DNA from: Rhodospirillaceae bacterium
GTDB taxonomy: Bacteria > Pseudomonadota > Alphaproteobacteria > Rhodospirillales > Rhodospirillaceae
Direction: 5' to 3'
DNA: 64,000 bases
Assembly: GCA_009693785.1 (NCBI GenBank)
Contig: SHWP01000010.1
Coordinates: forward strand, 1-64,000
The translations under genes and the position numbers were made by a program. Positions within the stretch are counted from its first letter, which is position 1. Every line of letters begins with the position of its first letter. This document shows, piece by piece, positions 9,604-38,429 of this stretch. The notes beneath the pieces were generated by a model, which searched no databases, was not told where the DNA came from, and was given only the letters and a program-made list of their open reading frames with translations.

Positions 9604-9652
9604 CCATCAGCGGCGTACCGCGCCACGATTCACCCAAACCACGAGACTACCC

Positions 9653-10021
9653 ATGCCGTAAATACCCGCGTATTTAACGCCGATTCTTCTTCTATTCGCA
9701 TCGAATGTGTTCATGACAATTGCCTGGTATGGGCATTTGAAATTCAAAGCCGCGCCTTTGTTTTTGGCCATCGCGATCAGGTGGGGCATTGCTTTTATCG
9801 AGTATTGTCTGGCTGTGCCTGCCAACCGTTACGGCCATGCCGTTTACTCGGCTGCTCAGCTGAAAACCATGCAAGAAATCATTACCTTGATCGTCTTCGC
9901 AGTTTTTTCAGTGGTTTATTTAGGCGAAAGCCTGCGATGGAATCACGCCGTGGGCTTTTGTTTGTTGATTGGCGCAGCATTCTTTATTTTCTACGAACCG
10001 GGAAAGGCTGCATCCCTTTAA
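9653..10021 (+). pseudogene. DMT/DUF486 small membrane protein with a stop at the third codon
   Basis: From 9662 the frame encodes I-P-A-Y-L-T-P-I-L-L-L-F-A-S-N-V-F-M-T-I-A-W-Y-G-H-L-K, a typical DUF486 (DMT-superfamily) start, and continues through four helices to the TAA at 10019-10021, about 120 residues in all. The only good start, ATG at 9653, is separated from this by CCG and a TAA at 9659-9661. Translation could begin instead at GTG 9707 or ATG 9713, but that would remove most of helix 1. A point nonsense mutation or base error at the third codon is therefore likely. The stop overlaps that of arsC on the other strand. Confidence 0.6.
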
Positions 10022-10941: not shown

Positions 10942-11666
10942 ATGGGGATGGACCGGTTAGCGCACGTTTTAGTGGTCGATGATGCTCGCGATATTCGCGA
11001 GCCCCTAGCCCAATTTCTGAAAGCCAATGGATTTGCCGTGTCCGTGGCCGAAAGCGCGGCCGTCGCGCGGCGTCAGTTAAAGGGGGTAGCGTCGATATCG
11101 TCGTCCTCGATATCATGATGCCGGGCGAAGATGGCCTAAGCCTATGCCGCGAACTGCGCGCCACCACCAAGACCCCTGTCATCCTGCTGACGGCCAAAGC
11201 CGAGGAAACCGACCGTATTGTCGGGCTTGAAATCGGCGCCGACGACTATGTCACCAAGCCATTTAGCGCGCGTGAGCTCGTGGCGCGCATCAAGGCAGTG
11301 TTGCGCCGGGGCACCATGACCGTCGACGAAACCAAGGTCGAGAAAGGCAATGTGTTCGCTTTTGAGGGTTGGAAACTGATGATTGCCGAACGTGAGTTGC
11401 GCGACCCGCATGATGTTTTGATTCCCCTGAGCACCGCTGAATTTCATTTGCTCACAGCTTTCCTGACCCGCCCCAAGGCCGTGCTCAACCGCGATCAATT
11501 GTTGGACTTAGCCTATGGCCGTCAGGCTGGCGTGTTTGACCGAACGATCGATAACCAGGTCAGCCGATTGCGCCGCAAAATCGAAGAAGACGCAAAGAAT
11601 CCGCGGTTGATTAAGACCGTGTGGGGTGGCGGGTACACGTGGACCGCCGAGGTTAAGCGCTCGTGA
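10942..11666 (+). pseudogene. OmpR-family response regulator, split by a -1 frameshift
   Basis: The receiver domain starts at ATG 10942 or 10948: H-V-L-V-V-D-D-A-R-D with its acidic pocket, then E-P-L-A-Q-F-L-K-A-N-G-F. After R-R-Q-L-K-G the frame breaks at a G5 run (11082-11086); the frame shifted by -1 resumes with S-V-D-I-V-V-L-D-I-M-M-P-G-E-D-G, which holds the phospho-acceptor Asp, then the Thr and Lys sites (I-L-L-T-A-K-A and T-K-P-F) and a winged-helix DNA-binding domain ending R-L-R-R-K-I-E-E-D, V-W-G-G-G-Y-T-W. One extra G would restore one reading frame of about 241 codons. The stop overlaps the kinase start (GTGA at 11663), as in a normal two-gene operon. Confidence 0.88.
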
Positions 11667-13193
11667 AATATTTAGGTCTGAATACGCTGGCGGGGCGGCT
11701 TATCGCATTGCTACTCGGCGCGGTGTTGCTATCACAAATCATCAGCGTCTTTTTATTTGCCGACATCGAGCGCAATCAGTTGAGCTTAGGCCGTCAGGAC
11801 CAATTCTTCCGCCAAGCCACGTTTTGATCGACGCGATCATCGATGAAACCCGTGCGATGCGCCCCGCCGAGTTGCGCCGATCTAGCTCACCCGAGCAACG
11901 ATACTGGATCGCCGATCGCAGCAGCATTGCCGAGACTCATCAGAACGAGTTCCTCGTTCCGCCTGCGGAACTTTTTATCTCGGTTGTGACGCAACGCGGT
12001 CTGCGCGAACCCTTAGTCGCCTTTGACGATGACCCGCGCACGATTTTTGACCGCTTGTTCGATTTCCAAACCCCGCCAGGTGCAGGTGATGACCGGCGGG
12101 CACGGCGGCCCCGTGAAGATGACTCGCCAAGAGACAGACCAAGGCCGCCGCCCGATCGCGAAACCGGGCTTCGTGGCCCCGATGGCCCCATGGGTGCGCC
12201 ACCCGGGCCGGAAGGGCCGCCCCGGTTTAGCGGGCCACAACCGCGCGACCCAGTGCAATGGCGCATCGCCGCTCAGCTGCCCGATGGGCGTTGGTTCAAT
12301 GCGGAGATGATTTGGCCGCGATCAAACCAATGGACCCAGCCACTGTGGGGCCAAGTAGCGCTGATGGCGCTTGCGACGGTGCTGATCGTAGTCATGGTTG
12401 TCAGGCGGGCCACGCAAGGTCTGCGGCAATTGGCCACGGCTGCCGATAAGCTTGGCCGCGGCGAAAGCATCGAGCCGTTGCCTGAGCAGGGCCCGACGAG
12501 GTCAAGCGCACCACAACCGCCTTCAATGTGATGAACGAGCGGTTGCAGCGCTTCATCGAAAGTCGCACACGCATGCTAGCCGCCATTAGCCACGATCTGC
12601 GCACCCCCATCACCGCCTTGCGTATTCGTGCGGAGCTGGTGCCCGATGAGGAAAACCGCACGCGCATGCTGGCAACCTTGCAGGAGATGCAAGAACTAGC
12701 CGAGGCGACGCTTGCGATGATTCGCGAGGACGCCACGCGCGAAGATTCTAACACCGTCGAGCTGAACGCCCTGGCCGAAAGCGTGTGCGACGACTTAGCT
12801 GACATGGGCACAGAGGTGAGTTTCGAGGGCAGCGCGCGGCTGCCCTATCGCTGCCGAGCCAATGGCCTTAAGCGCGCGTTGCGCAATTTGATTGAGAATG
12901 CTGTGAAGTACGGACAGCGGGCTCGGGTGCGCTTAGAAGGCAGCGCGAGCAATATCACGTTTACCATCGACGATGATGGTCCGGGGATCCCTGCAAAAGA
13001 TATCGACCGCGTGTTTCAACCGTTTGTGCGGTTGGAAGAATCGCGTAGCAGAGCAACCGGGGGATTTGGGCTTGGGCTGTCGATCACGCGGTCTATTGTG
13101 CGTAGTCATAGCGGCGACCTGATATTATCAAACCGGCCTGAAGGCGGTCTGCGCGCGATAATTCAGCTGCCGCTGAGCGCGGTCGAAGCGTAA
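11663..13193 (+). pseudogene. EnvZ-like sensor histidine kinase, split by two -1 frameshifts
   Basis: Begins at GTG 11663 with a first membrane helix (L-I-A-L-L-L-G-A-V-L-L-S-Q-I-I-S-V-F-L-F) and R-Q-A-T-F, stopping at 11825-11827. The frame shifted by -1 continues V-L-I-D-A-I-I-D-E-T-R through the periplasmic domain, a Pro/Gly-rich tract, membrane helix 2 (about 12345-12400) and the HAMP domain, then breaks again at CCC (12492-12494). The third frame gives the dimerisation box A-A-I-S-H-D-L-R-T-P-I-T-A-L-R with the phospho-His, an N-box (N-L-I-E-N-A-V-K-Y), and G-boxes (D-D-D-G-P-G-I-P and G-F-G-L-G-L). All domains of a full kinase of about 510 residues survive, so the damage is small or artefactual. 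Confidence 0.87.
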
Positions 13194-23181: not shown

Positions 23182-24023
23182 TTAACTTTCGATAGACTTG
23201 AGATAAGCCAGCACCGGGTCCACCAGGGCGGTTAGCTGCTCGGGCTTGGCCATCATCGGATCACCCTCGAACCCCGGTACCCAGGTTTTTGCCCCTGGAA
23301 CGAAGGCCGCCGTTTCCGCTCGGCACAGGGTAGGCACCTTAAGGCCGCTCAGTTTGTCGGCGATGGGATAATTCCAATACGCGGTGAAGGCCTTGTGTGA
23401 CGTCGCGCACATTTTCATATGCTCGACGAACGACGCATGCATGACTTCGGGCGGCGGCAAATCGACTTTGCGCATATGCGCGCCGTCTTGTTTGAACCAC
23501 GGAAAATAGGTGATCAGGCTGCGCATGCGATGCCACACGAACCACACATAAGCACCCGATTGATCGGGCAGCACCTCGGGGCCGTGCTTAGCTTTCATCT
23601 CGGTCAAATCCTCACCGGCGATCATCATGATGCGGTTGAGGATCAGGCCTTTGACCCCCCGGCCGGGCTGCTGCAGCGCCATGTCCACGGCCGTGCGCCC
23701 GCCCAAGGACGAGCCCATCAGCACGCACTGCGACACATTAATCGAATCGAGAAAGCGCCAGACAGCGCCGGCAAAGTAATCCATGCCAGGGTCGGCCAAT
23801 GTTGCAGGCGGCGGGGCCGAATCGCCCATGCCCATGATATCGGGGGCGATGACGCGCACGGATTCCGCAAACAGGTTCAACAACGGCACCTGATGGCGCG
23901 CTGTGCCGGGCCCTGGGTGCAAATAAACCAACGGGCGTCGCTGTAACGGATATGGCGCGGCTCGCCATGCCAGTAATGGACCTGGCCCTCGGCGATGTCG
24001 GCGAATGCGCGTTTGACAGGCAT
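23182..24023 (-). pseudogene. Alpha/beta hydrolase, 5' end displaced by a -1 frameshift
   Basis: The ATG at 24023 (AGAAGG upstream) starts M-P-V-K-R-A-F-A-D-I-A-E-G-Q-V-H-Y-W-H-G-E, typical of these hydrolases, and runs to H-I-R-Y; the frame then shifts near 23930-23945 and resumes as R-R-P-L-V-Y-L-H-P-G-P-G. The remaining 245 or so residues are intact: oxyanion H-P-G-P-G, nucleophile elbow M-G-S-S-L-G-G with Ser near residue 115, and a C-terminal His is less clear. One added base near 23940 restores a protein of about 280 residues. The longer frame that starts at 24270 reads through the wrong phase and is not a gene start. Confidence 0.78.

Positions 24024-36462: not shown

Positions 36463-38429
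<1,967 letters not shown>

Follow-up and report, generated by a model that had tools for sequence, protein, structure and literature searches.

Three one-base frame changes in an OmpR/EnvZ-type two-component operon of a Rhodospirillaceae genome assembly

A two-component operon in pieces

The window analysed here is a stretch of 64,000 nucleotides from the genome assembly of a Rhodospirillaceae bacterium. At positions 10942-13193 it carries a two-component pair, an OmpR-like response regulator followed by an EnvZ-like sensor kinase, which is laid out in five pieces:

10942..11086, + strand: regulator, first piece, frame +2; start of the receiver, where relatives also align in frame +2
11087..11666, + strand: regulator, second piece, frame +1; remainder of the receiver and the winged-helix DNA-binding domain, with the stop TGA at 11664-11666
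11663..11821, + strand: kinase, first piece, frame +3; first membrane helix (assigned by eye)
11822..12495, + strand: kinase, middle piece, frame +2; proline-rich region, second membrane helix (by eye) and start of HAMP
12496..13193, + strand: kinase, last piece, frame +1; remainder of HAMP, HisKA with SHDLRTP, HATPase_c, stop TAA at 13191-13193

The receiver, DNA-binding and kinase motifs had been predicted to survive, and their domains were indeed recovered across the separate pieces, HAMP weakly. The first regulator piece matches positions 1-39 of the 111 of Pfam Response_reg with 24 bits, under the cut-off of 30.2, and the second matches positions 43-111 of the same model together with Trans_reg_C. 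The order typical of OmpR-type regulators, Response_reg then Trans_reg_C, is present though in two pieces, and neither translation nor the alignment of relatives gives the window's regulator as one open reading frame. The Asp encoded at 11109-11111, picked out by eye, is presumably the phospho-acceptor. The GTG start of the kinase at 11663 overlaps the TGA of the regulator. A Pfam search with the first kinase piece (11663..11821) gave no match, and the middle piece matches HAMP 2-30 below the cut-off (E 0.075), because the third break falls inside this domain. HisKA, with its H-box, and HATPase_c score over their cut-offs in the last piece, which with the weak HAMP makes up the domain set of an EnvZ-type kinase; both intact genus relatives that were scanned carry HAMP, HisKA and HATPase_c.

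The best NCBIfam model for the regulator is PRK09468 OmpR (220 bits for the larger piece, curated cut-off 331) and for the kinase PRK09467 EnvZ (171 bits for the last piece, curated cut-off 415). Two intact relatives are likewise under these values, with 229 and 241 bits for OmpR and 207 and 189 bits for EnvZ, and we therefore name the operon no further than OmpR/EnvZ-type. It resembles such systems in its order, common to its relatives too, in which a receiver with winged helix comes first and then a kinase that has HAMP, HisKA and HATPase_c, and it differs from them in the three frame breaks and in scoring under the OmpR and EnvZ cut-offs.

The frame breaks and the operon in relatives

The pieces are separated by three breaks:

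11079..11087, + strand: break 1, net one-base loss at AAAGGGGG, overlapping an in-phase X_XXY_YYZ heptamer (A AAG GGG)
11800..11826, + strand: break 2, net one-base loss near a T4
12489..12497, + strand: break 3, net one-base loss in GGGCCC, overlapping an in-phase X_XXY_YYZ heptamer (G GGC CCG)

The original prediction of three -1 frame changes was confirmed by translation and by tblastn with the single open reading frames of relatives, whose unbroken proteins cross the window from frame +2 to +1 in the regulator and from +3 to +2 to +1 in the kinase. The positions given at that time were also good: the G5 at 11082-11086, a site near 11820, which lies at the T4, and 12492-12494 inside GGGCCC. 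At break 1 all 27 relative-to-window tblastn pairs are in -1 phase, and in frameshift-aware alignment 38 relatives place a -1 and 12 a +2 there (50 calls in all), two readings with one and the same net phase. At break 3 the 22 tblastn pairs are all -1, as is every call of the frameshift-aware alignment, at 12485-12497. Poor conservation of the sensor region leaves break 2 with a single outright call, from the kinase of the genus mate G004; further support comes from the tblastn pieces of relatives, which lie in frame +3 before and +2 after the break. Single-relative calls inside the sensor region (+1 at 12136 with L091, -1 at 12246 with L032) were left out of the count. Among the 24 receiver matches of this genome, a break interrupts only the one in this operon. 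At two of the breaks a start and a stop codon overlap by 4 bases; we considered and rejected translational coupling as its meaning, since most TGA stops that follow a one-base loss give this overlap.

Comparison with related genomes had been proposed as a check. We searched 60 relatives, four of them genus mates, and examined 105 related loci, 47 of which have a regulator of at least 52% identity (42 distinct places, five occurring twice). The regulator reads on upstream in one frame in 47/47 of these nearest loci. A kinase in one frame stands beside it in 44 (the locus ends inside the kinase in seven of the 44); two of the other three loci end within 632 bases of the regulator, and at the third, L050, no kinase was detected. 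On the assembled sequence, then, the operon has what defines a pseudogene, disabling lesions in genes that are unbroken in relatives. The closest regulators of genus mates are 64% identical, so that no near relative is at hand to show whether the breaks are shared.

At columns that are 90% conserved among relatives the regulator piece differs at 1/37 and the kinase piece at 0/36, and in agreement with the consensus they rank 11th of 59 and 6th of 37, respectively. Relaxed constraint was consequently not seen at the conserved columns of the operon pieces, a result with little power for a recent loss, because a kinase on contig C51 that carries a nonsense codon (see below) is still 76% identical to its G004 counterpart.

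Lesions across the genome

The genome (G000; 2.95 Mb, 72 contigs, 86.4% complete) was compared over 788 kb (482 kb covered) with genes of G004 and others by tblastn, followed by frameshift-aware alignment of 745 of the 996 query-place pairs (all those from G004 and all on the contig of the window). Within the covered 482 kb, 27 lesions were kept, of which 22 are one-base losses, 3 are gains and 2 are nonsense codons. With 22/25 kept indels being losses and 2/27 lesions nonsense, the spectrum is more one-sided than would be expected of pseudogenes. Rows near gene ends, compensating pairs, gene junctions, and rows with weak flanks or apparent antisense queries were dropped (C51:60599/60643, C38:12905, C38:108263, C40:34257/35063, C4:46235, C4:52149, C4:59333, C40:74801; stops at C10:1419 and C40:2177/2285; +1 rows at C42:573, C46:7172, C5:699 and C40:49766); with the four +1 rows included, the ratio of losses to gains would be 22 to 7. 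The tally of two nonsense codons is drawn from the stronger stop rows among the matches listed. Six kept lesions (C11:10350, C40:4108, C40:66910, C40:22077, C40:22304, C4:37779) are outside the alignment table and rest on tblastn pieces and on frames read by eye. An early frame scan in which gene overlaps were disallowed reported many gene junctions as shifts and was replaced by this homology approach. Reassignment of TAG was also considered, since TAG is one of the in-frame stops met in homologous stretches, and was rejected: among called genes whose stop codon is complete, TAG ends 164/578 in G000 and 344/1277 in G004, as an ordinary stop would.

Two of the kept lesions lie elsewhere in the window:

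36760..38429, + strand: PAS-PAS-HisKA-HATPase kinase, comparison case, -1 break at ~37779 next to an A6
23185..24023, - strand: hydrolase-like gene (a name we gave by eye), comparison case, -1 break near the N-terminus at ~23920-23965

The first, which is not in the frameshift-aware alignment table, splits the HisKA model into 1-30 and 37-66 and is -1 in all of 34 tblastn pairs; the second rests on one relative (G004), 72% identical. Two genes on other contigs combine frame breaks with a nonsense codon, namely a histidine kinase of the 888-aa type at 71.7-74.3 kb of C51 (L111), where a TAA accompanies three -1 breaks, and a GGDEF-EAL gene on C38, which has a TAA and a +1. Both are compound pseudogenes, and for this reason real decay very probably occurs in this genome. 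Well-conserved genes carry single -1 breaks as well, among them a COX15/CtaA-type heme A synthase (79%) and an HtrA-type trypsin-PDZ protease (74%), which weighs against real decay; the essentiality of heme A synthase is uninformative here, because the genome has three COX1-family matches.

When G000 genes were in turn compared with 609 kb of G004, about five lesions were believable: one +1 at C4:51133, three in-frame stops (C6:63953, C6:108555 and C8:95145) and a possible -1 at C5:88194. The query sets of the two directions are unequal, so this is a rough contrast of lesion rates. Other in-frame stops in G004 are mostly in apparent antisense gene calls, and some frame calls mirror the lesions of G000.

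The lesions are not spread evenly. When 26 of them (all except C4:23965) were placed at random on the covered bases 20,000 times, as many close pairs were obtained in 0.7% of placements and as many close triples in 1.4% (5% and 9% with the window operon left out). Frame-broken genes account for about 6% of the DNA compared, and both kept nonsense codons fall in them. In a set of 336 orthologous genes, which holds 10 of the 18 genes with a loss and leaves out C4:23965, 1/97 genes of at least 84% identity is lesioned, by nonsense and +1. The ten -1 genes have a mean identity of 0.669 against 0.761 expected (P 0.011; 0.06 without the window operon), and low identity can itself breed false lesion calls. 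Kinases are lesioned in 3/5 cases against 10/331 other genes (length-aware P 0.003; 0.025 without the window operon). The kinase and conservation tests were both conceived after seeing the data, and both weaken without the operon. A census of histidine kinases gave 4/15 broken in G000 and 1/28 in G004; G002 has 11 in total, one of them with a short frame (C32). Kinases outside the alignments were judged in it by open-frame length alone, so that the C38:45135 kinase, with one TAG inside the match, counts as intact at 467 aa against 468 in the G004 kinase; four HATPase_c matches per genome were set aside as what we take, from their size, to be GyrB, ParE, HtpG and MutL.

The 21 one-base losses used for the run-length test (C4:23965 excluded) are nearer to short homopolymers than random coding positions (P 0.002-0.004), and a run of at least 4 lies within 8 nt of 9/21 losses, against 15% expected (P 0.002). 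This nearness is predicted both by real decay and by assembly error.

Origin of the frame changes

The original prediction had offered two explanations: either the assembly had dropped bases from homopolymers, or a real system had decayed. This alternative was supported in part: both keep a substantial probability, and the nearness to homopolymers fits both. Both are ordinary. We lean towards recent real decay, with a probability of roughly 0.55 that the operon decayed recently in this lineage by three one-base deletions. A chromosomal OmpR/EnvZ-type operon would then have lost its function through one deletion in the regulator and two in the kinase, each in or beside a short homopolymer run, presumably of independent origin and present in the DNA of the organism itself. 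Translation of the regulator would run out of frame after break 1 and end at the TGA at 11116-11118, and a restart at the ATG at 11115 would give a fragment that lacks the acceptor Asp. The kinase would end at the TGA at 11825-11827, past the first membrane helix, and initiation at the GTG at 12528 could yield at most a soluble kinase core with no partner, so that probably no full-length protein is made.

The clustering, the nonsense codons in frame-broken genes, the sparing of conserved genes and the excess of kinases speak against random sequence error. The one-sided spectrum, the nearness to homopolymers and the unrelaxed pieces speak, in turn, against old decay. The operon is like recent multi-lesion bacterial pseudogenes in having several disabling lesions where relatives are unbroken, as in the C51 kinase, and unlike them in that it has no nonsense codon, that its three lesions are all of one sign and that its constraint is not relaxed.

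Nearly as serious a candidate is that the assembly consensus is wrong at all three sites, the errors clustering where coverage would have been thin, and that the living cell has a normal OmpR/EnvZ-like system. The common -1 sign of the three breaks, shared with most kept indels, the homopolymer context and the unrelaxed pieces are all in its favour, and so is the incompleteness of the assembly. The searches gave no match for rpoB or rpoC in it, while the same searches were positive in 14/14 control genomes, and at least one essential stretch seems to be missing. Furthermore, for one long-read assembly described in Kastor (PMC12007338), indels were most of the errors and mostly false deletions, and deletion errors accompanied runs 2-8 bases long, chiefly those of 4-5. 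This error pattern fits the lesion contexts here equally well, with one-base losses at short runs; it differs in that the lesions here are clustered and uneven between gene classes. The thin coverage is our supposition. Sequence error should, moreover, neither avoid conserved genes nor prefer kinases, and it has to accommodate the two other multi-lesion genes that carry a nonsense codon too. A general homopolymer compression of the assembly was rejected, run-length counts showing long homopolymers to be no scarcer than in G004. The matches to dnaE, alaS, ileS and gyrA, and further open frames matched by those models, are all unbroken, a point for real decay, though they are too few to exclude sequence error by themselves.

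A ribosome that shifts frame could also reconcile the breaks with a working protein, and programmed or 'savior' -1 frameshifting, giving some full-length product across at least one break, would be suggested by the heptamers at breaks 1 and 3 (background 831 in 227,795 codons). In an E. coli study, A_AA.G_GG.G is among the most efficient motifs, but G_GG.C_CC.A, the sister of the motif at break 3, fell below the paper's threshold (PMC4066793). Slippery heptamers are found at two of the three breaks, break 2 having none, and 0/47 of the nearest regulator loci are broken here, so that the frame change is not conserved in relatives. Of the 14 other -1 calls examined, a heptamer in the upstream frame is present within 18 nt at 2 and absent at 12. 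When 16 distinct -1 calls, including the dropped row C51:60643, were re-examined, a heptamer lay at most 2 codons away in three (breaks 1 and 3 and C9:16578); at C51:45175 heptamers lie at 15 and 18 nt from the break. The 73 nt after each break show unremarkable folding at break 1 (z -0.7), and at breaks 2 and 3 the folding is modest (z -2.3 and -2.0); successive shifts would give almost no kinase. Across 1106 complete genomes the GeneTack survey reports 4010 clusters of pseudogenes and 146 of recoding (PMC3711429), and recoding is therefore a rare cause of such frame changes. We thus regard frameshifting as exceedingly improbable and take the heptamers at two breaks as chance, because one-base losses favour runs and 47/47 of the nearest relatives show no frame change here. 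It is very improbable, too, that the breaks are real and partly rescued, with slippage at A_AAG_GGG and G_GGC_CCG giving traces of full-length protein in a lineage whose sensor kinases would be selectively switched off by slippage in short runs.

With either origin, gene callers will split the operon into several short proteins or overlook some of it. Should the losses be errors, several kinases are missing from counts of this genome's regulatory genes; should they be real, the genome offers a small case in which sensor kinases disappear before genes that are better conserved.

The Pfam match of a DUF486/DMT_6 gene elsewhere in the window (9650-10021, + strand) starts only at model position 10, and no ATG, GTG or TTG is present that would supply the missing N-terminus. 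In G004, in addition to the five lesions given above, an apparent decayed remnant of a DUF486 gene is found near C12:41369, where it adjoins an AI-2E transporter gene.
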